Shown here in pieces: positions 14,165 to 50,845 of a DNA stretch of 64,000 nt. Position 1 is the first letter of the stretch. Every line of letters begins with the position of its first letter. Made by a program: the position numbers and the translations under genes. The DNA is from Kryptolebias marmoratus. Lineage: Eukaryota; Chordata; Actinopteri; Cyprinodontiformes; Rivulidae. The notes beneath the pieces are model-generated. The model saw only the letters and a program-made list of their open reading frames with translations, made no database searches and had not been told where the DNA came from. Location: the NCBI RefSeq assembly GCF_001649575.2, contig NC_051436.1, forward strand, positions 7,466,134 to 7,530,133. The letters are read 5' to 3'.

Positions 14165-14212
14165 ATGGCGTGGGACAGGTGTAACCAGGACTCTGTGTGG
14201 AGAGAATTAGAG
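14165..14212 (+). CDS. ppargc1a: ppargc1a exon 1 (coding part), residues 1-16
   Basis: Reads [16 protein letters not shown], then donor GAG|GTGAGA. Human exon 1 begins MAWDMCNQDS and ends VWSDIE, so the start and the phase-0 border are matched. This is the canonical (exon 1a) N-terminus. The equivalent of mammalian alternative exon 1b was not recognised in the 14 kb upstream. Confidence 0.95.
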
Positions 14213-14407
14213 GTGAGAAAATAATCCGACTTTTTCCACACTCACTCACACACACATTCACACACACACACCATCATCCCTGTAGTTCTTTGGAGATTTT
14301 CTATTTTTCTATTTTTATTTTTATGGAATCATGGACAAGTCTCTGCTGTTCGGGGCTCGCCGGTGTTAGTGCGCGTCTGGACGCGGCTGAGGATGCGAGG
14401 GATCTAT

Positions 14408-14477
<70 letters not shown>

Positions 14478-26400: not shown

Positions 26401-29400
26401 TGATGTTTTGTCAAATAGCTATCAATAGTTAGAACTTTATCAGCAGTGAAATCAGTCATGTAGCATGGAGAAAGAGACAAAAGTCTTTGTCCAGGCTAGT
26501 CCATTGGCTAGCAAAATAAGTGCCATCTTTTGTTTTTAATCTTTTTCAGGCTTATAAAACAACTCTTTCTCCAAACTGACATACAAAATAACCAAAAAAA
26601 AAGAACTCTACTTACATAATAATAATTAGTCCATCAGGAGTTGAATAAACTTTTGAACTAGATGCCCTGATAAGGTGGACTGATACATTCACAGCCACTC
26701 AGCACCATACATTCATGTAGGAAACGCAGAGATTGTTCAGTTGAGAAAACAACAACAGACTAAGCAATGCAAAAGAGTAGAGCTTTAATATTAGCGAATG
26801 AAGCATCCTTTAACATTGGTATGTCATTTTTGATAAAAAGTTGTTTCTTAAGCCTGAAAAACAATAAAAAATTGCACTTATTTGGCAAGTTGTTGGACTT
26901 TTGCCTCTTTCTCTCCACTCTGTGCTCTATGACTGATGTCACATCTGATCAGGTATTAATCACTGAAAGCTATTTGACAAAACTATTTCTAAAATGACAA
27001 TACTATCCCTTTAAATTCCAGCAAGATGGACAGTTAAATCTGTCTTTTTTTTCCTGTCCATCTCTAATCTGTCGTCCTCCCTGTGTTCTTCCGACACATT
27101 ATCAGCAGTGTAACAGTAGGTTCAAAGGCCCCTTGCTTAGAAGTGCACATTCAGAGCTGCCGACTTAAGCAAACAGCTATTTGCATGCCATTAGGAGGGA
27201 AAAAAGCAGAGGGAAGCACCATTTCTCATCCAAATGCTGCATCCAGCTGAATATTTTTTATTCGAGCCTCCAAATCTCTGTTTTTCTCTCCCCCGCTCCT
27301 GCTGCGACCGTCAGAACAAGGCACAGTCAGAGCAATCACAGCAATCAGTGTTTCCTCATGCCAAGCACATTGGGAAGTAGCTGCCAAAACAAAAGATTGC
27401 GCGTCCGGTCATTACGACGGTGTGTGATTTGGTGGTGTTAGGAAACGGTTGCTTGGGCCATCTGTTGAACGGCTGGAGAAGGAAAACAATAGCATCTTGT
27501 GGCAGGACAGTAGATAGACACGCCACAAACTGCGATCTTATCAGTCATTGGGATTCAAAAACGTGAGGTTATTGAAAGACAAGTGCAGCCATTTTGTGCT
27601 GCATTTAGAGAGAAGTTAGATTCTTTTTGGAGGCCCCGAGGCTTTGGAACGCTCTCCCTTCAGCATTGCGCTGCTCCGAATCTACTGACTTTTTCAAAAA
27701 GTCTCAAGACATATCTCTTTAGTTTGGCTTTTTGTTAATTTTGTTCACTGATTTTTATATTGTTGTCTCCATTTCTGTTAAGCCCTTTGTGATTTTATGT
27801 CTGTGAAAGGTGCTATAGAAATAAAGTTTACTTACTTACTTACTTAGGAATGGATATTGCCCACTGCCTTTCATGACAGAGTTTTAGACTGACCTGTAGC
27901 GGTCATCTTGAATTGGGTGGGCTCCAGAAGTTAAGCAGTGGATTATGACATACTGTGCTAACTAACAAACAGAGTTGACTCCAATTGTTAAACACAGATC
28001 TTTTGTGATCAGTTAGCGCTCATAGTATAAGTTGTGGATGAATCTATCATACTACCACACCCAGTTCTAGCTCAAAATATGTAAAATTGACTGATTTATA
28101 TCTATTTTTAAGTTTGCTGTAGCAGTCGTAATGAATTGGTTTGACTTCAAACGTTAATGAGTTGTAGATGTCAACCCAATGATTATATTCTGAAAGTGTC
28201 ATTAAAATCTGTTTGGTGATTCATGAGGTATTTTTTGGATTGATACAGAAACAGATGCACAGACAGGGCAAAAACATTTTTGTCCTTTTAGCTTTTGTGG
28301 AGGGTGATAAAGATCTTTACATGGTCTTTTAATGTACTTATCTTTAAAGCCCACAGGATGATATTTGTCCCAATGTTGGACAGAGCAGGTTAAAAATGGC
28401 ATATGATAGCCTCAGCAGATCTCTGCAGATGGGTGGCAGAGTTCAGGCAGTTAGTATGAGCAGGCTTTACAGGGTAAAGGATTTTTCACAGAAAACTCAA
28501 AAGAACAGCTATTGCCAACATCCCCTTGAGTAGGTGTCTCAATTGGATCTGGCCTGTGTCAGCAAGTGCAACAACAGTCCTCCTTCTCTGTTTGGCTCAC
28601 TCACACATCATTTTCCTCTCTCGTTTCCCCTGTCAGCTCATCTCACGGTTGCTGTAACAGCCCCAAATGGTTCCCAGGAGATCTCTGCACCCACACATCC
28701 CAATCCTCATTGATGGTTCGAATCGTTTCCGTACTGATTTATAACTCTGGTTGACTTCTAAACCGAGACATGCAGCTGGCAACTTCTGCAAATTTCGAAT
28801 GGGACTTTAAAGCACAAAATGCTAAACTCCTCTGTGATTATATTGTTATCCAGGCAAGTTATTGTGTTACAGATATAGTGTAGGAATCTTGATGTTGTAT
28901 TGGCTGATTTATCTTCATCTGCATTAATAGGGTGAGGAATTAAATAATATAGTGTAAACAATATTGCCAAACCAGATACTATAATCTAAAAGAGTTTAGT
29001 TTGAAAATTGGCAATCAATTATAGGAGGTTTACCCACTCTGTTGAATTGGACATATCCACAGTTCTACCACAGATGTGATTGTGTCCAGAAATGTCCAAG
29101 CAAATTTAGCCCACAAAAATTTATTTGTGAAATTATTTCAAAATAAAAGTAGCATTTTATGAAGGAATGCATACTACTCACTGCCTTGCGTACTAAAGTT
29201 TTAAACAAAAATCTCTCACGATCTGTTAGCGCTCAGAGAATCTGTTGGGGATAAGTCTTAGCTACTACCACAACAAAATTTATCTGTTAAAGCCATTTTT
29301 GTTTTTGGAAAGGTCCATTAGCTGTGGCAGCCATCTTAGGTTGACTCTGCAAGTTAATCATTTGTAGATGCACATTTATTGATTACATTCTGAGCATTTT

Positions 29401-32400
29401 CCTAAAATTTGTGCAGTGATTTAAGAGATATTTTGCTAACAATCAGATAATCAAACACACATAGGCTATTACATAATCACCCACCTAAGTGGTGGCTGGC
29501 TATAATAATAAGACCACTTGATTGATTCTAGAGACGCATAGAAAATGACAAGAGTCTTCACTGCTACATCTTGTAAGCCATTCACAGCTCTCACCACAAT
29601 GGTGGTTTAACATTTAGTTTTATGATTTGGAACACTGTTGGACTGTGCCGCCACTGCCTCACACACACACACACACTCACAGAAGAACTTAACAGTGTTA
29701 TGTATGGTTTCATCGCTCCGTATAGGCCATAATCACCCTCTCTCCATCTCAGTAAGCTCATGCTAAATGACCAGACGTCTCTGGCGGCTGCCATGATTTG
29801 TCTCTCTGCCGTGCATCGTGCCGTGCCTCACCCTCCCCTCCCCTCCCCTCCGTCTCCTCCCACCTTCCCTGCCACCATATGTTGTGCCTGTGTGACTGGC
29901 CCACGTGTCAGGCCTGACTAACGCCTTAACGGCGAAGCTGACTTTGATTTATTTCCTCTGAAATCTGGGGGCCGAGGGTAATAACACAGAATGACATTAT
30001 TTGTTTATCAAATCCAAGGCTGCTTTTCTTGGCAGAGTCAAGATGTGATGACTTGATACCAACACCCCACATGCCATACGAGCATATGCCCCCCAGAATG
30101 TTTGATTGTGCCATCTTTTCAAGGTCTAGCATGGTGTTTAACCTCATCAAAGAGAACGTCTTTGAAACCTGAAAGAGTCAGGAGCAGTAGAAAAAAGACT
30201 AAAATCGAGCAAAGTGGGGTCTTTTTCAACTTTAGACCCTTTCACAACGTATTTTCATGCCTGACCTGAGATGCCTTCTTCCCATCTTTATGTAAGGACC
30301 AAGGTGCTATGAGGAGTTGAAGTCAACCTGTCACTGTTATACCTCTGATCCACTAAGGCAGGTAGTCACAGTTCCAAAACAGTCAATATATATAAAGTTA
30401 AACCAGCATCACGATTCGAGAATATGATGTAGTGATGACAGACTGACTTCAGCTTTGAGATTTAGAATGGGAGATGTCCGACACATTTATGTGTAGCTCT
30501 CCAGATTAAAGCCACTGAGTTTCATTCTGTATCTCCATTTCAGTTTGACTGTGTTAATTGTCATGGGCCAGCTCTCTTGGTCCATTTATCAATGACCAAA
30601 GGCAGCTTAAAGAGTTGCTCATATTTGCATCCCCATTTCAGAATGATTTTGTGGAAAGGCCTTTAGCACCACCACACATTTTATTTGTCAAAATGAACAA
30701 AAGTACCCCACAGGTATTACTTGAAAATACCAAGTGACCCTGTACTTTATCTCACCACGTCCTGTAGATCTGTATCAGGTTTTGCCTCTCATCATGTGAT
30801 TGCAAAAGGGTTGTTAATTTAGATCAGACTTTATATGCTGGTGTAGATTCTCAGTCTTGCAGGACATTGTATTCCTTGCAAGTTGAATCAAAGCTAATTT
30901 GACCTTTTTGTTGCTTCTTGAAGACATTTCAATTCTAATCTAAGGAGCTTTCTTGACTGAGAATAAAGAATCAAAACATAAATCTGGTTGTCATTAACTC
31001 AACTAGCTGGGACCAATCTATACTCCATTCAGCTATCAGGTCTATCATTCTGTACTTCCACAACATGTTTGGTTCCCTTTAACACATAAATAATACATTG
31101 TCCCCTGCCAAAAGACTGTTAATATTTGATCCCTTGAAAGTTGCTCAGGACCTTGGAACTCTTAAGAAGCAATGTGCGGATCTAATTTAGCTGTTTGCCT
31201 TGGTGTCCCGGAGTGAGTGTTTGTTCAAAACATCACCTTCACCTCCTGTTATCAGCTCTGTGAATAGTATCTCCGAGAACACAATGGTGAGCTGTAGAAC
31301 CCAATAAAAGAGTAAAAGGCAAGGACAATCTGAAAGACTGCCTGACTGATAAGAAAAGTGTCTCGCCTAATAATGAAAAACTGGGGTTAGCTTTCACTTT
31401 GCTGGTGTGGGGAATATCAGATGGGGTGGGGAGAGTGGGGTTTTGTGCATGTGTGTGTTTGATGGGGGTTGCTGCCAGCTCTTGCCAGTGTGTTTTATGG
31501 CTAATTGAGGCATTTGGAATAAAACTGCAGCAAAATGGCACCCTTTAGAATTGGAGCAGGGTTAATATATAGTGATCCCACAATTAGCCCAGGATTGTTA
31601 AGATCTCTTTAATTCTGTGAGGTCCATTAAGCGGGATGGCTGAGAAAAGTGCCTCCACCGAGACAATTTTTCTCCCCTCTCTTTGTCCGTCCTTTCCTCT
31701 CAGCAGCTGCTGCAGTGATCAATATGAATGGACGTGGTCGTCCGCTGGTTGTTGGGTTATTCTGCCATTTTGGTGCCAAAGCTCCTGAGAGTCGCCCACA
31801 TTGAGGTTTTTTTTTTCTTTCTTTTTTTTTTTTTTTTTTTTTTTGCTAATGTCCAAGAAGCACTTTAGTGTGACTTTGTTTCTGAAACTGTGCAGTGTGG
31901 TCCCTAAGCTGGCATGGAAAAGCTCACCCTCCTGGACAGAGGTATTATATCATTTTCTCTCTTGGGTAGAAACCATCACTAAGGTTTGCTCTTTACCCCA
32001 GTTTCCTAAATCCCCACTTGGCCTATGAGTGCCTCTACTCAAGCCACAGCAGCGGTTGCTGACTGACGATCACGACTCTGGGTTTTACAAGTGTCTCTCA
32101 GAATATGAGAGTCCCTTCTCAGTTATCTTTTGGGATACACTGCACCTGTGGGAGCTTGGTGGAATTGGTGGAGGTTTTTGAAACAGGATTGAGCTCACTA
32201 CGTTTGAGCTTGCCGTGACCTAAAAAAAGAAAAAAAAATCACACAGTTCTTTCGAAAGCATGACATAATAATAATGGTTAGGCAGCCCAGCTTTTAATGT
32301 AACTCCCATCACACAGCGGCATACACGACAATTTTTACAGAATTTAGATTTATGGGTTTAAGGAGGATGGAAGTAGTGGATAAAGCTGCGCCTAAACACA

Positions 32401-35400
32401 GCATTGATTGGATGGTTGATGAGTATGGACTAAACAGATGGCTGACTCATTAAAGACTCATTTGTGATAATCTAAAAGGATCCTAAATTTCAATTTCTCA
32501 TGCAAGGATGTATGTTTGGGCTAAGCCGAGGCTCCAGCTCTATCAGCAGTTCATACCAACTCGCTTAGTGCTCAGGTAATGATTTGGGAAGCTGGAAAAC
32601 GGTGAGCGCTTCAATAGCACGAAGGTTCCAGCACAGTGGATTTTAAAGCTTCTCGCAAGTAATTAAACAGCATGCCACCTCGTACTGAGCAATTTCCTGC
32701 AAGGCATTAGCTTGCCAATGCAGCATGGCCCCCAGTCTACACCGTGTTATCTCTGTGAAATATGTCCCCTTTATCATTTTTTAATAATAACTGAGTGTTT
32801 ATATTGGTAGGAGAAAATCTGCTCAATGAACATCAAATTAACATTTTCCTCACTGTTAGCTGGCTCGCTGAAGATGTATGTGTCAGCTCTAAATGGACAT
32901 TTAAAATCTCAAGTATTAAAAAGGCTGTTGTCACATTAGTAAACCAGTCTTTTCAATGAATATTGATTGTATTGATGGCCATATGCCATCATCTAGTGAT
33001 TATAATCCTGATGTGTGCATAAACATTTGCTTTATTTGGGATAACCACAGAATATCCTGCAAAAAATACTGTTTATCTTTACACTATTTTAAAGTCCCTT
33101 GGGATTTTGTGACCCCTTCACTTTTTGTTGTCAATGTAAAACAAGGCAGATAAAATGTGTGTACAAAACACACACACTTCTGTACAGCATCTCAACTCCT
33201 TGTCACTTTTTATATGCATCTGCATACATACATTCTTTCTTTTGTATATTTTGTCCTCCACATACACTTGCAGATCTCTTATTGCTTATAAAACTCCAAG
33301 CTTACATTTCTCGCTATCTGTCTGGATGTATTTATTGCCCTTTGACTCATGCACATTTAAATTCTGAACTACTTAACAGTCAGCTGCAAGAACAAGCTTT
33401 ATTTATCAGAAAATGTTGATAGGAACTCCCTGTCCTAAATATCAACTGCCAAGACAGCATTTTAAATCACATTTTTTAGCATTTAGTGGGATGTAGCACC
33501 TCATTGAGGGTTGCTTTCGAGCATCTTTTGTCTGCAATCCAATTGTTCTTTTCTGTAGCTGAAGACAGGAAAAAAGCAACTTCATCCCATTGTATATTTT
33601 ACTATTATAAACTTCTCAAGGACAGAACCTGCTCGAAACCGTTTTGTCTTCTGTGCTAATCGGCAGTTGTGTGTACTTAAAATATGCACTAATTTTGTTT
33701 TCTTGAATATTTTAGAATAGGGTAGCTGTTGCACAAAAATCCAACTAACCAGAAACTGTTCTTTTACATGAACAATAAAAGGATCTGTGCAACCATCTAC
33801 CTCTTTTACCTCTCTAATAAAAATCAGATGCAAATTATCTTGACTAAAATCCCCCTTTTTTTCTTGTCTTTCTATGTTTTGTCTCCGTGTTCCTCCTTTT
33901 CCCCCTTTCTAAGAAGATAGATGAAGAAAATGAGGCCAACTTACTGGCAGTGCTTACAGAGACGCTGGACAGCATCCCGGTGGATGAGGACGGATTGCCT
34001 TCGTTTGAGGCCTTGGCAGATGGGGACGTGACCAATACCAGTGACCGGAGCTGTCCCTCCTCCCCAGACGCCTCACCACGCACCCCAGAGCCTGAGGAGC
34101 CTTCCTTGGTAACTTAAACTTGGTTTGATTTTGGAGAGAGTTTTTTATTTCATGATATGACCTCCAGATTTGGACACAGTCTTACTTTTTGGCTACTCCA
34201 CAGCAGTCACCAAATTATAACCTGGCACCAAAAGTGGTCAATAGTCTGTTAGAACTTCTGTTGTCAGTTTCCCACAATATGTTGACAATATGTGTGTTAA
34301 GTGCAAACAGACATGCAGATACAGGGAAGAGACAGAATGGGACAAGTGTGTTGGCTACTTTAGAGCTAATTACATGAAAGTGAAATTGTGTTTCCAAGTC
34401 AATGATATGAACATTGTGATTTAGTAGAGGTCAATTGTTAAAAGTCTTTGAATGACTGATGTGGATCTTTAAAAATCAGAGCTGCCAGTGGTGTTTTTTT
34501 TTCATCTTACAGAAATTTAACTTATTCAACCTTCTGAAAATGATATTGATTTCTTTTAACAGGCTAATTGTATATTGAAAATTTGTGTGTGGAACAAATA
34601 TTTCCTATTGAATATAAAAAATACAACTAATTTGTTCCAATCCTCCCCAAACTATGCACAACACTAACAATCACAGTCATTTTCAGCAAAGTAGAGACAT
34701 TATGCCTGCTTAATAACACCGCTACAAGCATTGTATGGTGAAAAATTAATGAAACAATAAATAATAAAGTCAATGAACCTCTGTTTCTGTTAGACACCCA
34801 CCTCTCTGAGGAATTGCGGCTGGCACGGAAGACGCAGCATAGGGGTGGAGGAGGTGGGAGCAGTTAATGTTTGGAAGGAGAATCCTCTTCCATTATGACT
34901 TCAAGAAAATCATTAAGGGTGCTTTCCATCCTACGGAGTTTTGAACAGCCTAACATTTCAGCAGCATTGACATCCCATTGGCACAAGAAATCAATCTATA
35001 GACATTTGCTTCTGCCTTCTAAATGCCTTAAAAATATGCTATAACATTGTCACAGTACAGATTTTATGCTGTGTGAAACAGGTTTGTTTGTGTGATGTTG
35101 CACACAAAAGCTTTGCCCTTTTTTCTCCAAACGGTGCACTGGAAGTGAACGCCTCCAAGTTCACCACAGGAGACCCGGCACTCTTGTGGCAGCAACACCT
35201 CAGGCCTACTGTAGTGACAAAACAACGTGGGGGGTAGCGAGAGGCACACAGCGGGGTGACTCATGTGCCAAGTGGGCAAATGTTGTGCGAAGAAAATTTT
35301 GTGTTTGGAATATCTGAACGCCATTTGTATTTTTAAAAAAAATTGTGTTCAGGCACATATGGTTGACTGTTTTGCATAACATAAATTAACATCTATTTTT

Positions 35401-38400
35401 AGAAGCGTTTAGTAAAACTTAGCAAAATGGCTGTACAGTGGGGTGCAGTCAGCTGGCTAAAACGGAATCTGCATCTTCTTTTTCTCTCAGTGTTTCTGTA
35501 CAAATCTAAAGGTGGTGACATTTCAGGGGTCTCCTTATGTTTGTAGTCTCCTTCTCTTTTCATTTTTGGCTGTTGGCTGCAGGTATTACATTTGGACATT
35601 CCTTTTTCAAACTCTGCTCTAAAAATTAAACCAAAGATCTTCAATACTTAGCTCCAACTATTTTGCCCCTTACTGTCGTTCATGATGATTGTCACGTGCA
35701 TAATTGAGGTGGATAAGTGGACCGTCATCGGAGAGTCGCACTATCACAGCGGTTCGAAAGCAAACATTTGTAATTGCTTGTAGTGAGACTCAGTTCTTGT
35801 AACTGTTTTGTCTACAAATACCTAATGTCAGGGCTTCTAGGCTCTAAGGTCTTCTTTAATAATTTAGCTTTGGGCCTTCATGCTATTCAGAACGTTTTCC
35901 TGACTATGGTACCACTGATTGAAGGTTTACTATAAATATAGTTCCAAAGTAGTTTCTAGTTATCTGCCTTTTTTTAAAAAAACTGAAGTTGCTCTGAAAA
36001 ATAAGAATGGAAGTCCTACTATTTTTCTGGATAGTTTTTAAAAGTTGGCACATGGACACTGGTGCCCTGCCGACTATCCAAGGTCTTGGTGTAACTATTT
36101 GATTGACATAAGGGTGTAGTGTCATAGATTTCACACTTTTATTGTAAACAGCAACACTGTGCTGCCCACAGATTTACCTGCTTGCTCAATCACAGCCAAC
36201 GGATGATTAATTTAAAAATGACAAATATTTGCTTAATTAACCTGGCCAATAAATTGTCCTTTCTCTGCTATAGTGGGGCCAACAGTGTATACACTACTAC
36301 AGAAACTGAATAAAAGCGATATCATAATAGTAAAGAAAATTAGAAATCCATAGCACCCCATCTCTTCCCAGCGAATCTTAACTGATTTTTAGTTTTTGAT
36401 AAAAGGACAAAGAAAAGAAACAGACCTTTCATTGTGGACCCACCCATATTTGTACTATTATTTGTACTCATGATGTTACAACCTGGATATTTTTCTGGCT
36501 TCAGTGCTTTAACCTAAAATGTTATGTTTTTTTTCGTTATAGTCCGTTCTATTCCATGCCGGTTCCTTTCCAAATGACATTTAGCAAAATGCCTGATTGT
36601 GTTTACTCAATCACACAGGGAACACATGATTATGTGTAGACAAAAAACACCCATGCAGGAAGGAAAAAAAAAAAATATATATATTTTTTTCTATAAACTA
36701 CCTACAACTGTCTCGTCTTTTAAACGTGTCATAGTTTATATATACTTTTTAACCGTAGCATCAGTTTAATTATCGCACATTTATAAAATGCAGGCTGTGT
36801 AATTGAAAGGAAATGGTCATTTGCATAACCCAAGGCTTCTCTCCCCCCTCATTTCCCCCTCCTTCTCCCCTCCTTTCCGAATCTGTTTGGGTCCATTTGC
36901 AGCTGAAGAAGCTCCTTCTGGCACCCGCAAACTCCCAGCTCAGCTATAATCAATACACAGGTGGCAAAGCACAGAACCATGCAGCCAGCAGCAACCACCG
37001 GATCAGACCACCACCTGCCGTCGTCAAGGTGGGGACACACACTTATGCGCACACACACTCACACAATTCCCGTATTGCCTTGCAGGTTTTTCCAGTCTTG
37101 TATGTACAGTTTTTGTTTCTGTTTGTTTATCTCTCTCATTCCGCTCGGTCTCTCTGTCTTGTTTCTTTCTCTCCCTCTCGCCTTGTCACATATTTTTTGT
37201 TTTGGTGGCCGCTTTAGAAGATGTTAGGCTACTGCTTAAGCAGTCTACTATCTCAGGAGGCTGTCTCGTAATGAAAACAGGCTGATTGCTGTTGGGCTTT
37301 GCAGGCAAGGAATCAGCACTGTTGTCTCATTAGCTCCAACACTTATACGACTTGGTGTAGTGCCTGTTAAAAAAAAAGAAGAAGAAAGAAGGGAATAAAG
37401 AAAAAAAACAGCGACAGGCACTTTTGAAGCAAGATTGATGTCTGGAGATGACAAGTTCAAAACATCAGATGTGATGTTCTCATTGGATGGTTTGAAGAGT
37501 GATTTTTATTCAATAGGGATGGGTTAATTAATTTATAAATTTAGCATGCATAAGTATCATTAGTATGTGAAGGTAAAAAAACTGAATATGAGATTTAATT
37601 TTTGTCCGAATCCAGCACAGTGTATGCTGACTGTCATATCAATCTATCACACTTGTTTGCTTTTGCTTGGCAGAAACATCTTCATTTACTGAGACCTTTA
37701 AATTATTAAAATAAAAAAAAACATCTGCATTTGGTGACATTGTATGGTAAACACACACAGAAAGATTTGTAGGTTATCTACATGCTATGTTTGGATATTC
37801 AGTGAGTCAACCTTCCTTACTGAGTCTATTTTCATACCGTGCCTTTGAGTCATCCATTTCTGGAGCAGAGCGAATGAGGACTCCCTGGAGGACACAGTGC
37901 GCATACAGAGTGATGTGGTGGTGCTCGAGGTGGGGGCACACAATTAGGATGATGGGCAGACAACCCTCCCGCCATCACCTCCCAGACTTAGGGGTGACTA
38001 CTGTACTCAGACCCATCAGAGTCAGTGTTGTAGCTTCACTGTGGCTCCATCTCTTTCTAGTTGTATGTTTATATTTTTGCCAAATAAAGTATGTACATTT
38101 GAATCAGCTGTACAATATTAACAACTAGGAGTACATGTATTCTTACCATCGCTGCAATCAGACAGAGTACAATAATTACAGGAGATCACCACTCTCATCT
38201 TTAGGAGGGTGCACACATTATTTTAAATTGTTGTAGAGGAAGATGCTATCTAAAGTACACTACACCAAAGCAACTCAAGTATTGTTTTCTTGTTGTACCA
38301 AACCCATATTGAACTGTGACCTGAGGTATATACCATGATGTATGTGTAACATTACATTCCTGCAAAAAAACAGTGAGTAAAAGTCTTAATACAAGCAAAC

Positions 38401-41400
38401 TTAGCTTTTGTTTCTGTTTATTGCTGTTTTGCATAGATGGAGAGCCCCTGGAATGGCAAGGCAAGAGGGGGTTCTAGCCAACAAAATCGCCCGGTGAGGC
38501 GGCCGTGCACAGAGCTGCTGAAATACCTAACAGCCACAGATGACATCCTGCTCAACACCAAAGCCAGTGAAGCCAAGAGCACCTGGGGAGGTTCCAATAG
38601 CAGGGACAAGAGTGGCCTGGGTCTCTGTGTCTCTTCCTCCTCCTCGCCATCCTCGTCATCCACCTCCTCGTTCTCCTCCTTATCCTCCACCTCCTCTTCC
38701 TCTGCCACTTCCAAGAAGAAGTCAACATCTCAACAGCAGCAGCAGCAGCAGCAGTCGCCGCAGCAGCATCACCAGCGAGGTGAGAGCCGGGCTGCAGGCG
38801 AGTGTAGTATGGCTGGTCATGGGGATGGGAAATGGCTGCGTTGCACTCTCGATGACGGGGTTGAGGAGTCGGAGGGTGCCTCTCTCCCTGTTGGCCGCAG
38901 AACCTACACCTGTGGTCACACCTGCCCCAAACCACAGCATGGGCCACCCAGTGAAGAAGGAAGGCCGCCAGGCGATGTTGGCCGCCTGGCCGCCGCTAGT
39001 TTTATTAGGTATATGCATTCTTATTCCCTCCCTCCCCGAGAGGTGAGTCACAGCTGTGAGCATTGCCGAGAGGCTGCAGGCGCCACTCAGGCGAGTGAAG
39101 GCTTTGGCAGACAAGGCCGCAGTAACAGTAGTGGTGTCGGCCGTGCACCACATCGGCAGATCTCAGTGACAATTAAGAAAAGAGGCATTAAGCCGGGGCA
39201 CCCTTTACTTAGTCAGCTTCTCACCTCCAAACAGAGGCCCACTCAATATCGGGCCCAACTACCCCAAACCTCAATTAACCCTTTACATAGCACTAAGAGC
39301 AAGTCAGCTGGTAAGAGTTCTAAGAACCCTGTTCAGATTTTTTCTAAGATAGAAAAGAAGGAAGTCAGAAGGACCACTAATTACAGAAAGCAGGCTGAAG
39401 AGCCGGAACTCTTGTCACCTTTTGCATTAGACCTAGAAAGCTGGAACAGCCTATTAGATCAAGGGCTAGATATTGGCTTTGAACTAACACTGGGGTGGCC
39501 AAATCAGGAGGGCTATGGGAAGGATGTTGACCATTCTGATGATGGTTTTGTTGATGATGTTGATGATGACCATGTCATGGGCAGCCCGGCAGTGGTGCTC
39601 TCACAGGGCCAACCAAGCCCACTCATTTCAGAAACTAGCATTGCAGAAACCACCCCTCCCTGCGTCATACAAGGGCAAGGGCACCCACACAGGCAGGCAC
39701 TCAGCGAGCACCCCGATGACCAGGGCCACCCATTGTTAGGTAATCATGACTGCATCCCCCCCACCCAACACTGGCCTTATCTCTGCTCTTTTTTTTCTCC
39801 CTATGCTGCTTTAACCACTTCCGAGTTTGATTTCACCACTAACCTGTAATCTAATTTGAATCTAACATTCATTCTGAGGATGCAAACACCAATGACCACA
39901 AACAGCCTGCTCGCCAACGCTTTTGTGCCAGCCCCGGAAGCATTTTTTCTTTAATTTTCAGAGTGCACTTTAGGGGATAAAAAACAAGATGGGGTGGAAA
40001 AAGGGGGTGAGCCTTGTCTTGCTGCTATAGAAACTATATTTACAGAGAATTCTTGAACTTTCTTTGGCTGATCAAGCTGAGTGTTCTGAATATGTACATT
40101 CAGATTCAGAGCCCAGATGCTGCTCTTTAGCATTGTGCTACCAAAGCCACATTTTCTCAGCTGAACCACAAGTCAGCCAAAGCCTCGGGCAACTGCACAA
40201 GCTTCTTTGACTCTCCTTTCTTCCTTCTTTTTTCCCCCCTCCTTCTGCTTTTGGTGCATGCGATCATGACTTTTTTTGTGTAGGGAGGGGCTCACCCACT
40301 GTCACGTGTTTTGTTTTGTAGCATTTGTCTCTGTATGTTTTTTATTCCATTATGATCTGTTCGTTGTCAAGCGCAGTCTGTTTTGTGTATAGACACCTGT
40401 GAAACCATCAGTCCACCCTGCCTCACATAGTCAACAGTCTGTCCTAAGAGAGTAAATTGTTCACATGGGGTCAATTTAATCAACTCTACTTTGTGTAATA
40501 GTGTCAGGGAAAAGACAGGGATTGGTGTTTCTGAAGTAATAAGTGTATTTATTGAGCCAATTTGAGATTAAATGTTGCAGAATGTGGACTTTTTCTCTTC
40601 TGCCATAAGTGTTAGATCAATAATTACCCATGCTCCTTTGTGTTCTGCAGCCAAACCAACCACCTTGCCACTTCCTTTGACCCCAGAGTCTCCAAAGTAA
40701 GTGTGAGAAAGTTTTTCCACATTTATCTAGGCAAAAAGCAACAACAAAGTACAGCAACAGACAAAGCCAACAAAAACATAATCTAAAATCCAAGTTGAGG
40801 CATTTTTTGTGACTCATTTCCATTTCTTAGATCACAAAAGTGTTTTAAAGACTTTATTCCAAGAACTCAAATTTAGTCTCTCTTTTTTTATGTCTTCCAG
40901 TGACCACAAAGGATCACCATTTGAGAACAAAACCATTGAACGCACATTAAGTGTGGAGATTGCTGGAACCCCAGGTAAGCACTTTTTTTTTGGTTGTCTA
41001 AAATCTAAACCACTGATACCATAAAATTTTCATTGGCATCTTTTGGATATTTAAAGGTTAATAGTAGCTTTTCCAACATCTTGATAGCTTTGTTTTAAAT
41101 CAAAGTTCAAAATGAAAACAAAGATCAATTGTATACACCTCTTTATTGATGTTCTGCATGGTTTATTAGCAGAACATTCATACATATTTTTTTTAATGTT
41201 TTTTTTATCTTCTATGAGATCCTAATATTCTCTGTCTGACAAATTACCTGGCTTACACATCACAGGGAAACTGAAATAAAAATGGAAAACCTGTTTTGCT
41301 TTGTAAAAGATGTCTCACACAGTTGTAATTGTAAAGACCTTGTACATGTCTTACTGTGCAAGCTTTATACAAAGTGTTGACAGTAACAAAGTAGATTGAT

Positions 41401-44400
41401 CTGACATATCAGTCTTCACATCAGTGTCCCCCTGGCAGTACTAAAACAAACACTTAAGTCCATATAGTTGTCCATAGTGGGACTAAAAGACCCATTGTTA
41501 TAATTCTGCTATAATTCTCAGAGAGGCCTTATAACGGTTTGGTCCAGAAACAACTCATGACAATATAATTTCATATTGCAGTTGTGAAGAATTAAAATAA
41601 AATTTCAAAGTCCAAAAGTTGCAAAGTTGGGAGTGATCTAATTATCTTTTTAAATTATTTTGTTCCAACCACACATTTATCCATGATTAATCATCTAATG
41701 TCAATAACAATAAACTGGCTGCCCTTTAGCCTTTGAAGCGGGTCCTTTTGGGTATTCATTTACCAGTTAATGGAGAAATGATCCCTGGATTTACTTTGTG
41801 TCTGTCCCCTGCAGCTTTTTTCTTGTGGGGGGTAGAAACTCAAAACCCAAGAGGTTTCCCGCTTTCTTTCTGTCTTTGTTTAAAATGTTTAAACTGTCTT
41901 TGTTTAAAATGTTGCTTAACCCCTTTTTGTAGAGACAAGCTCTCAGAGTCAAACGGGATACCTGTTGACACTTAAGGGAAAGAGCAGTACTCCTTGAAGC
42001 TTATGGGGCAATCACATTCAGTTAATATTTCCACTTGTTTTACTGCCTGTGGGCGAGTCTGTTTGACCTGTGGCCAAATTTATGCATTTGTTCATCACCC
42101 ATTTCACAAGCTCAACCACATAAAGCCCTTCACCTGACTTTTTCTATTCTGGGCAAATTTGGGATTGAATATTAGTAGGAAAGTCATTAGTCCAGAAAGC
42201 TTAGCGTTACTGAGCCCCAATTCGTAGTTAGAGATTACCTTCTGAGGCTCATGCTGTATGAGACAGATGGATATAGATCCTAGTAACCGCTGGTGTAAGC
42301 TGTTACACGTCCTTTGCAGATTTAGAGTAACATTCCATCACAATAGGGATAAGGGTGGTGTTACAGATAATCAGACAGAGGTAGAGTGCATGGTTCTACT
42401 TTAATGGCAGGACAATTGCACATAGTTTATGTGTTTATGACCAGTTGGTGTAGTAGTTGTTTCAACTATTACAAATTATAACAAGCCAAATTATGCTAAA
42501 GAGCAAATAAATGTAACGTTTGCAGCCTTTGTGTGTGTTTGACCCTTCTCAGAGAGGCACTGTAAAGGCTACAAAAGGCAGAGAAGCCCCTTGGGATGCA
42601 ACTGTTCAGGTCTAATCTCTGCCTAGCTAATAGATTTACTCTGTACTGCTGTGTTGTCTTTAATTACTGTATCTCATGACAGAGGTGGTCTGTGTGTTGC
42701 TATTTGCATAGCTTACTGCAGGATCAACCCTTTAAGCCTGGAGTTGTTATTCGCTCTGTGGTCTCCTCGCGATTTATAACTGGAAAGAACAAAAAAATAA
42801 AAAGAGAGTATAAAACTCTCTTTCTCGCTCACTCGTTCTGCCGTTTTCTCACTGGTGTCTGCATGATTGGTGTTTGTGTCTGCAAATCATCCATCAGTTG
42901 CAAGTTTGACTGAGAGGCACATATTTATCTAACTCTGATTTATTTCACCGCCATTGCTAATGGCTCCTAGTTTATGATCCCATGCACAAATGGTTTCGGA
43001 CAGATGGTGCTTCGTTGATGAAACAGTTTTTTTTCAGGCATTGTCGAACATCCGCTTTTCCTTTTTCCAAGCTCCTTTTTTAATTGGCATAATGCGTATA
43101 TACAGTGTCACAATCAGCTGTGGGAGATAAAAGAGATTGATGAGGGAAAAAAGTAAGNGGGGGGGGGGGGATATTAGGTGCTCGCAGTCACATCAAGACA
43201 ATGATGATAACCCATTGGCTCATGCATTTCAAACTAGTTACTTCAGACACAAACACATTTATGTGTCAGGCTCTCACACCGAGCTGTCTCACCAGTGTAT
43301 ATTCTAACACTAGATTTGATACTAATAGCTGTCATTTGGTGGAATTCAATAGCAAGGGCGGCAAAATAATGTGGATTATAGGAATGGCAAAGAAGAAGGG
43401 AGAGCGTAGGCGTTTCAAAGTGCCTGAGTTTGACTCCGGTGAGAGACTGTTGGTGACAAGTGTGCCTCTGTGTGTGGGCACATTTGTTCTGTGTGAGATA
43501 GAAACGGGATAAGATGAAGAATGACAGAAAGGGAGGGGGATGGAGATTGATCCAGGGAAGATGGCAGACACGGGAAGAGAAAAAAGGGTGGAACACCAGA
43601 CTAAAGAAAGAAAGAGGTGGAACGAGAGAATAAAAGTAATGGCGTCGGCTGTTTGTGTGAGTGCGGTAACAAAGCTATAAAGTGGGCTCATCTCAGGACT
43701 TCCCATATAACTGCCATCTGTCTGGTTATAAATCTGTAGAAGGCGAGGGAAGAGATGGAGGAATGGGGGGGGGGGCACGCGAGCAGTAGGGACATTTGTG
43801 AAGAATGTCAACTCAAACGCCAGCTCTTCCAATGTTTCGATGAAATGGCAAACATCTTCAGGAATGCCAAAATGTGCATTAGGAAAAGTATGTTCATTGT
43901 CCTCCAATGGTGCTGAACAGAAAATACAGATGTTGCTTGATAATCTTGAAACAACAAAGTAGCTCTTGGAAAATATATCATACATTTAGGGTCTTTTTCT
44001 ATCAGATGAATTACATTTCCCCGCTGTGGTTTTTCTTTCTTTAAAACAGATCTTTTCAAGGTCAGAGATGAGGACAATGGCAAGTCATCCGTATTACAGC
44101 TCTGCCATATTAAGTTACACCAAGCATTACATTAATCCGTCAAGATTGCAATAAAATAGGATTAGACCAAGCAAAAGTGAATATTTTAATCAGGCATGTA
44201 TCTGTGTCTGCTGTCTATAAACTGATCTGGGAGTTTATAGAAGGGTGAAGGAAGAATGGGAGGAGTGGGTTACTTGGTGAGGGGTCTATATGAGTCAATT
44301 TGCATTTTATTGCTCACACCCAACCTCTGTCTCTTCCTCCCTCCACACAGGTCTGACACCACCTACCACGCCCCCACACAAAGCCAGTCAAGAGAATCCT

Positions 44401-47400
44401 TTCAAAGCATCTCTGAAAACCAAGTTGTCCTCATGTTCCTCCTCAGCCTTGACATGCAAAAGAGCCAGGCTGAGTGAGTTGGGTGCCGGTGCTTTGGCCC
44501 CGGCCCCAGGTGCCTCAGCCGGGGGTCCCATCAGAAAGGGTCCCGAACAGACTGAGCTCTACGCGCAGTTGAGCAAAGCATCTACCAACCTCCCTGCAGT
44601 GGGAGGTGGTTTTGAGGAGCATTGCAGCACTGGCAACAATAAGCGGGCAGCTTCTCGTCGCCACAGCGACCATGACTATTGCCAGGCATCAGCTTGTACC
44701 AAGAAGGATGGGGGCACAACAGCCGTTTCCATGACTACAGCTGTGGAAATGACATTCGCCCTAGGTGCCACTGCTGCTCTTACACCGAGTGCTAGCAAAG
44801 TGGAGAACAGGCATGTTGAATGTAAGGACTCAGCCATTTCAACATCGTATTCATCATCTTCTTGTTCTACATCATCATCTTCACCTTGCCCTTTGACTAA
44901 AGAGCAGAATTTTGTCCCTATGGAAAGAGGAGGAGGTTGTGACAGGGGCATAGGGGAGTCAACCCTTACACAAACCACTGAGATCCCCACGCAAGGTGCT
45001 ACCACTGTTAGGGACCAACTACATCTTTCTGCAGCCAGTCGGAAGCTCCTGTGTGACCAGGAAATCAGAGCAGAACTCAACAAACACTTTGGCCCTCCCG
45101 TACAAGCCCTCTACAACAAGGGTGAGCAGGAGAGAGGTTCAAACAACAAATCAAGCAAGCCTACAGCCCCTCAGTCCTTTGCAGGGGGAGAGAATGACTT
45201 TTACTCCTATAGGCTGTCTGGCTCAAGCTACTTGCCCCCGGGATTTCTGTCCTTTCATGATGAGCTAGAGTTGGACAAGGGCCATGAGAGTCGCTTCGTC
45301 TTTCCATGGGAGGGAACCCCCCTTGACCTACTCTTCGACTGCTCTCCCCGCTCTCCCTCCTGTTCTCCGCCATCAAGTTGTTCCCCTTCACGAGGCTCTG
45401 TCTCCCCACCTTCCTCCCTTCTCTTGTCACCCAGCAGACCTTTCTGCTGGACCAGCAGCGGGTCCCGTTCCCGTTCCCGCTCTCGTTCTCATTCTGGTTC
45501 CCGCAGCTCCTCGTCACGGTACCGCAGACGCTCTCTGTCCAGCTCACCAGACAGACGTCCTTCTTCCTGGTAAGTTGGCATCTTTTCTTGTTTTATGGGG
45601 TAATCTCAGTTGACATATAGGGAGCTGCGCTAGGTTGTGATCAATACTGCAGCCTTGTAATCCTGAGACTGCAGGTTCGAGCCCAGGTTGTATCAGGAAG
45701 GGCATCTGGCGCAAAGATCTTTTGTGCAAAGTTCACTTTCTGTGGCAACCCCTGAAGAAGAGAGCAGCTGAAAGGAAAATAACAACTGTTGATTGACATA
45801 AAGAACTCATAGAACCCATCCCAAATCCTAACCTAACTCTCACCATAACAAAATACTGTTTTTACTCTCAGATAGCAGCAACACCTCAGTGGTAGAGGTG
45901 TTGACTTTCTATGGAAACATAGGGCTACATTTTCCAGCTTGGCCAGGTGTCAAAGTGTCTGTGAGCAAGAAACAAACCCGAAAATGAAGAAACACAGGAC
46001 CACACACACTTGCACTTTAGTTGCTCCCTAAACATCCCATTTCCATGGGGCTATGAGCTGGCAGGGGGTCTAGTTCTAGAGCATAACATGGGTCTGATCA
46101 TTTTTCAGACATAGCATGAGGCGTGATAGAACTTAGACTCTTTAACTGCATTTTCAAACTTGGTATCAGGTTGTTGTTTAGCATCAAGAACTCTTTCACC
46201 TACACCTTTTTAAAAGATTTGCAATTTTTCCCCCTTTTATTCTAAACAACTCAATCTGCAACTATAATCCAACTTCAGACATGAGTTTTTAACTTTCTGT
46301 TTTTTTTTCCTAACCATAATGGCATTATTTTATTAAAATCTGAAACAGGTTATATTTAAATTTGTTCTGACAATCGAGGAAAAAGAAAGGATCAAAAGTA
46401 CAATCAAAATTAAAATTAAAAAAAACAACTATAAGTTGCTTCTGGCGCTAGACGTTTGAACATGATGAGTTTTCATCTCTAGGCAGGGAGTTTTTTTTAA
46501 GCATCTCTCTAATAACAGTCCCTTCTCACTCACTCTCTTGCTCCCATTTACTTTTCCTTTTCTTTGATGCCAGGGCTATAGTTTTAAGCGGCAGCTGTTG
46601 TTTTAACTGAGTGGCAAACCTTCCTCTTTTACATCTCTAGAGATAAAAGCCAAATCCAGTCTGTGGGAATGTAGTCTCCAAACACCTTTAAAAAAAAACT
46701 CTATCAACATGGCCCTCTGTGAGAACTACGTTTCCCATCTTTCCCTTTGATCAGAGCTGAGGGAGTTTCTTTTTTATGGTAGAAGGAAAAAAAGCAAACA
46801 CTAGTTACTGAGAATGATATGAATAAATTGAGTTTGTCAGTAGCGGCTCATTGAGCCCCTCACAGTGTCAGACTCCACTGCAGTGACTCACTTTGTTTGC
46901 ATGATTACTGAAAGGTCAGTTTACTCCACGGAGCCAATAGAATCACTTCATCTTGTTCAGACCCTTGTTCTTTATTCCACACCAACGTGCTCGCAAATTA
47001 TGCAGTAATAGTCTCAAGGCATTCGATCAAAATCTGACACTGACAAGCTTTGTGAAAACACTGAATAGGCGTTCAAGTAAAGAAGCAAAGTCATGCAAGA
47101 ATCAGAAAAAAGCATTTCAGCAGACTGATTCTCAAAACCACTGTTCTTTGTTTTAGTTTCACAGCATATAATCCTCTAGCTTTCAAAACTGGTGTTGCTT
47201 TGCTTCACTTAGCTTCCAAAACTTTTTTCTTTTTCATTATTCAGGCCTTCCTTCTTCAGGAACACTTCAATAATTGAGCATCAGAAGCTCAAAGCGTGCA
47301 GGCATATAAGCGCTACAGTCAGGCCGCCGGGGTTTAAACTATTGACCACTTCTTCATACAACATAGATAGTAGGTACATGCAGAAGCCAGTTCAGGTGTG

Positions 47401-50400
47401 TTTAAAAAAGGCTCAGGTATTAATCATGAACACCTACTGTAGTCATGAGTTGTAGTCAAAACACTTCCTGTAGTATTAACACTTGAGGTAGTATGTCTTG
47501 CATAGCTCAAAAAACCCTAAAAAGTAAAGTAATAGAAAGCACATATCTGAACGTTTTCTAACTGAAAAGATGAATATCATTGTGCTTTTCAAAAATATTT
47601 CCTGTTTTTGTGTCTTCCTACTTTACTTCAGGTCTCATCACAGCTCAGATTTGAACACTGTTCGCTCCAGAATCCAAAAGAGCCCCCACCCTCAGTCTCG
47701 ATCTCCTCACAGCCGCAGGCCAAGGTAATTGTTTTAAATCAATTATTTAGCATGCTGTTTAATATGCATTGTTAACCTTAGTATGTTATGTGCTTCAGGT
47801 AAGGGCAAATGTTTGTGCGCAGGTTTCTGACAGAATTCTAAAGCTTTATGATGGTATGAAGGAAAGTGATGAAATTTCTTTTTAATAATCACTTAGAAAA
47901 TACTTTTTTTTTTTTTCCAAATGTCTTTACTATTACAGCATCAAGAGATGCTGTAACAGCAACAACTGACATCTTAAAGTTTTGGAAATTGTTTAATTCT
48001 GACTGTATTGACAAGTTGATTTAAAAACTTAAAACAACTCAATTCTCAAGATTTTCAAAGATTTCATTCCAATGCTATTTTATAAATCTTTACACTACTA
48101 ATGATTTTGCATTGCATGATCATTCCTTTAGAAATATTATAATATTTTTGCTGGAAGTATCCTGGGCTGCACCAGAAGTGTTATAGCTAGCTGCCACTGA
48201 CACTATTTGTGTTTCCGAATAACCATAAAATTCTTTGTAAATAACTAATTAAGTAAAAGTATATTTACATAACACCATTTACCATTTATAAAAGGCCAAG
48301 TCTAACTGAATGCTTCTTGGAGGAAAAATGTCTTCGGCTGGTTTTTAGGTTTCCACAGTGTCTAAACTTTGCAAAAAAGAAAAGCTACTGCTTGAAAACT
48401 TTGGTCCCGAAGAGAGACTGGGGACCAATAAAAAGTTCTGATTAGATGACTTCAGACAACAAAAGGGAAATAACAGCGTAATGCAAAATTGACAACAGTG
48501 TAAAAGTTTATAAAATAGCATTGGCATGGACAGCTATGAAAATTTTGAGTCTGGAGCTGTTTTTATTGTGAACTGCACAGTGGAGCATCTGATTAGCACT
48601 TTTGCCTCTCAGCAAAAAGGTCACAGGTTCAACTCCTGGCATGATGTACCCTGACTCTCACCCAATGACAGTTGGGGGCAGGCACCAACTCCCAGCAACC
48701 CTGAACATGAATGTAGAATATAGAAAATTGGCTGTGTTGATGGATGAGTTGAGGCAGCAGTCCACTCAGGTCTGGGCCTTGCTCAGACTAGCCTTTAGCT
48801 CATCAATCCTGCCAGAATGAAACCATCCCTTAATGGCAAATTTGTTTAAGCAGATCATGTAACTTGTAACCCCCCAAAAAAGAAAAAAATTGCCATCTTA
48901 CTGTTGCACTTTCATGCTACACTCATGAGTTGATGCTCCCAGCTTTCTACTCATCTGAGTGTCTGTCTGTAGTTTTCCTTGAGCAACTGCAGACAGGACT
49001 ATTTCATATGCAGAGAAGTACTGGCACAGACTGACCCCATCTCAGCGCTCCGAGCTGATTTGGCTCCTACGTGTCTAATGACACCCGACAAGCCCGAGAG
49101 TCGCTCATCAGTGGAAAACTTAGTGGACATGTCTTGTGCTAGTCTAGGGCAGAGAGGGGGAGGAGGAGAAAGTAGCACTTTTCCTTCTTGATGAAGCCCT
49201 AACTAAGCAGAAAGTAATGACATGTGAAGTTGTGCTGACAGCTGCAGCTGCCTGGGTCCCCGACTGCGCCGCTTGCCGGCACTCCCGCGGGCCTGTCCTG
49301 CAGGCTCCACGTTCTTAGAAACGGCGAAAAAGACATCTTATTAACACGTCCATCTCCTTTACTTTGCAACCAACTCCTCAGCCGTCACGGGACTTGGTCC
49401 TTGGTGGATACCAGCAATTGTTCTTCATAAGCATCGACAGGAACGACGCATTTAAAAAGGACGGGGGAGGACAGTGATCAATGTCGTACATATCTTTTTC
49501 CTCCGCAGGTATGACAGCTATGAGGAGTACCAGCACGAGAGGCTGAAGAGGGAGGAGTACCGCCTGGATTACGAGAAGCGGGAGTTTGAAAGGGCTGAGC
49601 AGAGAGAAAAGCAAAGGCAAAAAGCAATAGTGAGTCAACTAAAGTCACATTTTCTCTAACAGCTGGGTTTTTTTCTTCTTCTTTTTGTTGCTCGTCTTAT
49701 TTTCCTTGACCACTGCTGATAAAGGAGCACATGTAATCAGTGATGTGGCACAGAACCTTCCCACAGACACACACAGATCACTTAGGATGAGACAGCCTCA
49801 AGCTCCATGCCATGTGCCAGAGCATTTCTCCACTGAAAGAATACATACAAAGTGAGTTCCTGAATGATTCAGGCGACAGGCCCTTCCTCTTTATCACTGG
49901 GTTGTATATTTTTAACATCTCTGTCGTCTGGAAACACTGTCAACTCGTATTAATCACACCACAGGGGTTAAAACAGCAGAAAATAGAAAATAGCAGAACA
50001 AGAAAAAGAGAGGTTAAAAAAACGGAAGAGGAAATGGTCACTGAATCTTTGAGATCTTTCTTTTTTATCACCCGCTGCTGAAAGGTGAAAGGCCCACGTC
50101 TGTATATGTGCTTGTGTGTGCGTCTGTATTTTATCAAAACATTGCATAAATGACTAGACAAATTTCATTGGAACTGGCACAAAGTAATTATTGGGTGTAT
50201 ATCTAAAACTGATTTCCTTCTGGAGGCAACCCGATTTAAGATGGCTGCTACAGCCAACTTACCTTAGAAAACACAAAACTGGCTATAATGCAGTCAGTTT
50301 TACAGTTTTTGAGCTAAAGTTTTATGTGGTTGCACCTGAGAGTCATTCGCAGTGCATACTCTGTGCATAACATCTTGTGATAATGCCAACATTTGACCAA

Positions 50401-50811
50401 AACAACTATAACTCTGTCATTTTCCAACATAAAAAAGGAAGTGGGTGGTATGCATTCCTTCAAGGAACAGATACCATTTTTCATTGGTGTCTGTTTCCAA
50501 ATTCAGAACAAATCAGTGAATATCACAATTTCTGACTTATCTCTGCTCTCCTTGTCTCAGTGGGAAATTACTCAGGTTTCCAGTGGGGCTAACGCTCCTT
50601 ACCACCCGTTGATAAAACACACATTAAATGATACAGTAATGCCAGCTCGGCTCAGCGTGCATATATTTTTCCCAGAGACGGAGAGACAAACAATCATGAG
50701 CAGTCAAGCTCAAGCTGTCAAACAAGATTTGGGAGGCTGGAGATGAGAAAGTGTCTCTCTGTCTTGCTCGTTTTGCTTTTGCCTCGTTTCTCCCCTCCTT
50801 CTGTATTCATT

Positions 50812-50845
<34 letters not shown>

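Follow-up and report, generated by a model that had tools for sequence, protein, structure and literature searches.

Exon 5 of ppargc1a in Kryptolebias marmoratus probably retains, as real coding sequence, the long central segment of the PGC-1 family, which would be either skipped by splicing at 38779, resulting in a protein of 940 aa, or included by splicing at 39739, resulting in a protein of 1,260 aa. This reading is based on a 320-codon open extension of the exon (long form; 38780..39739, + strand), evaluated by translation, shuffling, and period-3 analysis, on an 11-residue motif that recurs in exon 5 of ppargc1b, and on an arrangement of predicted donors that the two genes have in common.

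Gene model and identity of ppargc1a

The window, meaning the whole 64-kb stretch of DNA analyzed here (G000 contig C7:7466134-7530133, from a genome of 680,653,423 bases), contains ppargc1a on the + strand. The gene model was built by hand from the order of the human protein and from splice signals and comprises 13 coding exons with a coding span of 14165..58034. The exons before exon 5 are located at 14165-14212, 17033-17212, 33914-34108, and 36903-37028, and those after exon 6 at 40901-40974, 44351-45569, 47632-47724, 49509-49629, 51893-52014, 53492-53643, and 57931-58034, all on the + strand. In its short form, exon 5 (38437..38779, +) runs from phase 0 to phase 1 and carries the LLKYL box (38515..38529, +) as well as a Ser/Gln-rich stretch directly before the short donor. 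Tandem repeat rows resolve this region into a Ser-rich stretch (38631..38702, +; also seen in the translation), probably the Ser/Gln insertion described for fish PGC-1-alpha (PMC6354234), and a CAG-rich run coding a Gln stretch (38734..38776, +), which ends 3 bases short of the proximal donor. Exon 6 (40651..40696, +) is 46 nt long, enters in phase 1 and leaves in phase 2, and is compatible with both the short and the distal donor.

Judged by its sequence, the gene in the window is the ppargc1a orthologue, an assignment made from human PGC-1-alpha peptides of the PDB and from the RRM. The peptide of entry 3d24 matched residues 198-219 (exon 5) at E 0.00013 and that of 6kxx was matched at E 0.00046, and the LKKLL and LLKYL receptor boxes are of the human PGC-1-alpha type. 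TPPTTPP, DHDYC, an Arg/Ser-rich part, and the C-terminal RRM (RRM_1 E 4.5e-07 in the joined short protein) are all present. Of 56 listed frames of at least 100 aa, those of exon 5 (470 aa between stops) and exon 8 (430 aa) rank first and second; the third longest, with 223 aa, is situated on the - strand in intron 2 (20825-21496).

Open frame and coding signal of the extension

The initial annotation had described the exon 5 frame as open past the short donor, and indeed none of the 319 whole codons of the extension is a stop. The interval 38780-39739 measures 960 nt or exactly 320 codons, as had been stated, and the short and the distal donor are both of phase 1. As 38779 and 39739 share this phase, either donor joins exon 6 without a change of frame, and the two predicted splice forms have uninterrupted translations of 940 aa and 1,260 aa. 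The other five frames of the extension contain between 8 and 32 stops. The estimate that such openness is beyond chance was likewise confirmed, with 0 of 20,000 dinucleotide shuffles being open at a mean of 12.9 stops. Taken separately, 38782-39309 was open in two of 5,000 shuffles, and the same frequency was obtained for 39310-39738 (shuffle mean 6.49 stops). The frame continues for a 36-codon tail past the distal donor, which was open in 1,562 of 5,000 shuffles (31%); consequently, the tail past 39739 needs no explanation.

The period-3 signal of the extension amounted to 5.63, close to the 5.36 of exon 8, and the maximum among 182 overlapping exon-free windows of 957 nt was 2.85. Without the GAT-rich stretch at 39528-39605, which is acidic and adds to the signal, the extension still reached 3.53, above all 182 controls. 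The segment 39310-39738, which includes this GAT-rich part, gave a value of 3.69, found as high in one of 1,000 shuffles, and 39606-39738 alone gave only 0.67, for which reason periodicity does not place the exon end. An attempt to locate it at 39740 by the drop of period-3 in sliding windows was rejected, the drop coinciding with the GAT-rich stretch leaving the window. As the drop tracks this stretch, only two observations bear on the exon end, namely the change in G content from 27% (39500-39739) to 11% (39740-39849) and the architecture common to ppargc1b.

Codon usage was not decisive and separates the extension frame poorly: after correction for composition, three of the 182 exon-free controls were as good as the extension. 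Measured against intron codons, 0 of 584 controls reached it, yet another frame of the same stretch came close, with 16.7 vs 21.5 bits. Pfam reported nothing above its cut-off on exon 5, and a PDB search with the extension returned 0 matches at E 10. An AlphaFold2 model of the extension, calculated without an alignment, was uninformative (mean pLDDT 40.5); its short helix at residues 141-147 of the model, which overlaps LSQLL, was given no weight.

The ppargc1b locus of the same genome

A search of all 680,653,423 bases for the pattern GLTPP[T/A]TPP returned two matches, one being ppargc1a and the other C9:28556895, with 0 matches for the reversed control. The second match falls in the ppargc1b region (L011, G000:C9:28547001-28557000), so that ppargc1a (C7) and ppargc1b (C9) are separate loci of one genome. 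N-terminal exons, exon 5, TPPTTPP, DHDYC, RRM, and C-terminus of the C9 locus match human PGC-1-beta in the same order, and exon 5 matched the latter at E 2.14e-14. By this comparison the C9 locus is ppargc1b, the name being taken from the better match to human PGC-1-beta; the exon 5 match also shows the human sequence used for comparison to be sound in its central region. Exon 5 of ppargc1b carries, in this order, CTELHRHL, LITYMHTYCLP (28553030-28553062), and LRELL (28553255-28553269).

Exon 6 and the end of exon 5 of ppargc1b are predictions from sequence. Candidate exons were filtered for a length of 28 to 139, a phase of 1 to 2, a pyrimidine-rich acceptor, and a donor score of at least 3. 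The candidate at 28554431-28554476 (46 nt, phase 1 in and 2 out, donor 6.14), reading KRACLCLPLNPKST, has the length and phases of ppargc1a exon 6. A second candidate of 97 nt passed the filters and was discarded, showing no likeness to ppargc1a exon 6. If the 46-nt candidate is exon 6, exon 5 of ppargc1b must end at a phase-1 donor. Twelve in-phase GTs follow LHRHL, the best three being 28552955 (7.31), 28552895 (2.80), and 28553726 (0.61). The first (CAG/gtgagg) and the second of these are placed upstream of the ppargc1b motif, and 28553726 marks the end of the frame. Hence, as far as donors can be predicted, exon 5 of ppargc1a and of ppargc1b mirror each other, each having an in-phase donor of high score ahead of the motif and another of low score close to or at the frame end. 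The ppargc1b donor at 28552955 precedes the motif by ~75 bases and, if used, would yield a PGC-1-beta without motif and LRELL.

Relation of the extension to PGC-1-beta

An 11-residue motif, LSQLL, and KKEVRR occur in the extension in the order initially reported, their residue numbers in the 1,260-aa form being 372, 441, and 490. The motif, of the form MHxYxLP (39001..39033, +), was identified by 11-mer ranking and BLASTP as the counterpart of LITYMHTYCLP in ppargc1b exon 5. It ranks first against LITYMHTYCLP, with a score of 41 and the next reaching 30, among the 72,275 11-mers that the six frames of the window contain without a stop. In a BLASTP comparison of the two exon-5 proteins, the LLKYL/LHRHL box came first (E 0.003) and the motif second (E 0.007); a box whose homology is in little doubt from the gene family is hardly stronger than the motif. 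LSQLL (39208..39222, +), an LxxLL peptide, corresponds in the register of the local alignment to LRELL of fish ppargc1b by order and spacing, the distance from the motif being 69 residues in the extension and 75 in ppargc1b, and is a probable further nuclear-receptor box of the long form. For KKEVRR (39355..39372, +) the evidence is weak.

The Arg-x-Met-His form of the motif was searched throughout the genome and matched four times, in exon 5 and at three other sites, with two matches for the reversed control; the pattern could not match ppargc1b because Thr replaces Arg there. All three further sites were rejected: the one on C24 is in no + strand frame of at least 60 aa, and of those on C6 and C23, judged by the matched letters only, one is without Leu and one contains a stop. 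A literature search for the printed letters of the motif found nothing.

The extension had been proposed as kin to the central region of PGC-1-beta. This proposal was supported by the motif, the order and spacing of LxxLL, and the exon architecture, and not by similarity beyond the 11-residue block. The whole extension obtained a local score of 62 against fish ppargc1b. Of 5,000 shuffles, 35 did as well, the highest at 87, and of 791 frames one other, that of exon 8, came to 61. After blanking the motif, similarity across the extension fell to chance level, with 746 of 3,000 shuffles being as high against fish beta; the best alignment still paired LLSQLL with LLRELL. Outside the motif, 878 of 3,000 shuffles were as high against human PGC-1-beta. 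The order of peptides attributed to PGC-1-beta was recovered in fish ppargc1b exon 5 for LITYMHTYCLP followed by LRELL. KKEVRR contributes little to the comparison, since in the best local alignment fish beta reads just PVRR at this place. At the level of sequence, homology is thus evident for the motif and, from order and spacing, likely for LxxLL; for KKEVRR it is not apparent.

Using a profile of two sequences, fish beta and human beta, the expected match of the extension to PGC-1-beta appeared at E 0.036 among 992 sequences (200 shuffles), vs 0.02 for a low-complexity antisense frame; the shared short exon 5 gave E 0.024 among the same 992 sequences. A global MAFFT alignment left the motif not lined up. 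Against unmasked human PGC-1-beta, the exon-5 frame scored 91 and an acid-rich antisense frame 85, and the acid run was consequently masked in later comparisons. With this mask, the extension scored 82, a value reached by 0 of 5,000 shuffles, which we regard as a lead only. Human PGC-1-beta presumably contains the homologous segment within its protein of 1,023 aa. In summary of these comparisons, PGC-1-beta (ppargc1b) resembles the extended exon in MHxYxLP, a downstream LxxLL, a 46-nt candidate exon of phase 1/2, and the two-donor layout, but differs in that it offers no significant alignment to the extension outside the motif.

PRC (PPRC1) was considered as a further relative. What we take to be the human PRC sequence, LVRAMHPYCLP, resembles the motif. 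Kinship along the extension, suggested for comparison in the initial annotation, did not emerge, the local score against human PRC being at chance (246 of 1,000 shuffles). A genome-wide search for pprc1 by MHxYCLP gave nine matches, among which only ppargc1b is in a frame of >300 aa, and fish pprc1 was not found by this pattern.

Splice donors of exon 5

Donors were scored by the base frequencies of a general vertebrate consensus and not by a fitted model. The short (proximal) donor (GAG/gtgaga, 38780..38785, +) scored 5.85 in phase 1 and leads to the 940-aa form. The best score within 38437-40650 was 7.47, belonging to the donor after 39042 (GAG/gtgagt, 39043..39048, +), just past the 11-residue motif; it is out of phase (phase 0), and a truncated protein of 394 aa is predicted from it, compared with 653 aa from retention of intron 5. 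The distal donor (TAG/gtaatc, 39740..39745, +; phase 1), leading to the 1,260-aa form, scored 1.66. The other 11 ppargc1a donors, proximal and distal aside, range from 0.84 to 7.59, and the distal donor is lower than 11 of the 12 other donors, only that of exon 3 (0.84) being lower still. It is therefore weak, yet within the range of ppargc1a donors. Such scores are not rare, 3.5% of 3,715 GTs scoring as high, and 22 in-phase GTs are on offer downstream of the short donor before the frame ends at its stop; hence, the distal donor by itself is not strong evidence.

Among these 22, the middle donor (CTG/gtaaga, 39311..39316, +) scores above the distal one and constitutes a serious alternative exon end. 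In that case the extension would be coding and end at 39310, with a predicted protein of 1,117 aa and the distal donor unused. The middle donor is in phase, has a score of 4.91 vs 1.66, and both motif and LSQLL are upstream of it. We nevertheless consider this alternative unlikely: the part that it would leave out (39310-39738) is itself stop-free to a degree seen in two of 5,000 shuffles and has a period-3 of 3.69, although the GAT-rich part is located there, and ppargc1b too has a weak in-phase donor at its frame end.

Comparison with published PGC-1-alpha

The excerpts of PMC6354234 describe a liver cDNA of blunt snout bream PGC-1-alpha coding for 881 aa, a length that fits the short form. 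Mammalian and published fish PGC-1-alpha share LKKLL, LLKYL, TPPTTPP, DHDYC, the Arg/Ser-rich part, and the RRM with the gene described here. Ser/Gln insertions of 12-31 residues in fish PGC-1-alpha are given in the same excerpts and a serine-rich insertion of the icefish protein in those of PMC6884616, and a 320-codon addition is absent from these excerpted accounts of insertions. NT-PGC-1-alpha and truncated isoforms, as outlined in the excerpts of PMC8036390 and PMC13282225, resemble the present case in that a splice choice in mid-gene alters the protein, but in contrast to them the predicted long form adds a segment and retains the Arg/Ser and RRM parts.

The bream cDNA also bears on the possibility that the extension is a fossil, coding until recently, with only the short form being made today. 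The strong proximal donor, the length of 881 aa (PMC6354234, excerpted), and the little likeness to beta outside the motif all point in this direction. A fossil should, however, collect stops, of which ~13 are expected in shuffled sequence and 0 were found in 319 codons, and the motif has been retained at rank 1 of 72,275, rendering this explanation rather improbable.

We regard it as very unlikely that the long form predominates in Kryptolebias marmoratus and that the proximal donor is a rarely used decoy. Human PGC-1-beta, with its presumed homologous segment among 1,023 aa and a centre matching fish ppargc1b exon 5, would favor such a state. Against it stand the donor scores (5.85 for the proximal vs 1.66 for the distal) and the published fish cDNA, whose length in the excerpts of PMC6354234 fits the short form. 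That the extension is an intron stretch left open by its composition and carrying a chance motif, as its GC-rich first half (57.9%) and the openness of other frames over parts of it might suggest, is largely refuted already and can practically be dismissed in view of 0 of 20,000 open shuffles, a period-3 above all 182 controls, the first rank of the motif among 72,275, and the exon layout common to ppargc1b.

Predicted splice forms and their implications

According to the preferred reading of an exon 5 with a skipped or included coding segment, the strong proximal donor would remove the segment and give rise to the known type of fish PGC-1-alpha with 940 aa. Use of the weak distal donor would lengthen the protein by 320 residues, placed after the Ser/Gln stretch and ahead of the part coded by exon 6. 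The long transcript would be made in some tissue or stage. Its added part would be mostly disordered and bring in the conserved short motif together with the further receptor box LSQLL, and both may change which receptors or cofactors PGC-1-alpha binds. We infer from this a long form of fish PGC-1-alpha with a PGC-1-beta-like choice of partners. The short motif common to the two coactivators offers a ready target for binding tests.

The predicted insertion falls within the stretch of PGC-1-alpha that binds NRF-1 in mammals according to the excerpts of PMC6354234 and PMC7139572 (residues 180-403). The AMPK-PGC-1-alpha-NRF-1 axis has been proposed to be disrupted in fish, partly via Ser/Gln insertions in the NRF-1-binding region (excerpts of PMC7139572, PMC6354234, and PMC6884616). 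If fish make a PGC-1-alpha of 1,260 aa with a central module of PGC-1-beta, this question would reopen in tissues expressing the long form. In bream hepatocytes, siRNA against PGC-1-alpha changed the expression of neither NRF1 nor TFAM, as stated in the excerpts of PMC6354234. The 19 letters of this siRNA match ppargc1a exon 2 (17101-17119), which is common to both splice forms. Consequently, the knockdown does not spare the long form, and any action of the latter on NRF1 or TFAM is to be sought outside hepatocytes.

In evolutionary terms, the presence of the motif in ppargc1b exon 5 fits a segment predating the split of alpha and beta. On the strength of the two-donor mirror and the motif, which provide the best evidence, we read the long exon 5 as ancestral in both genes; the central segment would then be older than the alpha/beta split and the forms without it derived. 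This suggests a vertebrate ancestor whose PGC-1 had one long central exon, with the short PGC-1-alpha as a derived state. More tentatively, and with considerable doubt as to the whole, both PGC-1 paralogues of Kryptolebias marmoratus may share an exon-5 switch, in which MHxYxLP and a second receptor box are left out when splicing uses the strong proximal phase-1 donor and included when it uses the weak distal phase-1 donor. If so, tissues or stages favoring the distal donor would contain, next to the short PGC-1-alpha cloned in fish, a long one with partners like those of PGC-1-beta.

Additional features of the window

No matches were obtained with Rfam at gathering scores or with ARAGORN (0 each), and no relative of the window was found among viral contigs, prokaryote contigs, and phage records. 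The exon at 36903-37028 codes for Pro in RIRPPP at the position of the Thr targeted by AMPK in mammals, a replacement also listed for other fish in the excerpts of PMC6354234. Intron 1 harbors a perfect TTTTC array of 29.8 copies (15823-15971), and CA is repeated perfectly 32.5 times at 14411-14475. In intron 9, an inverted repeat (48065-48113 and 48480-48528) with arms of 49 nt and 82% complementarity perhaps marks the two termini of a small mobile element.
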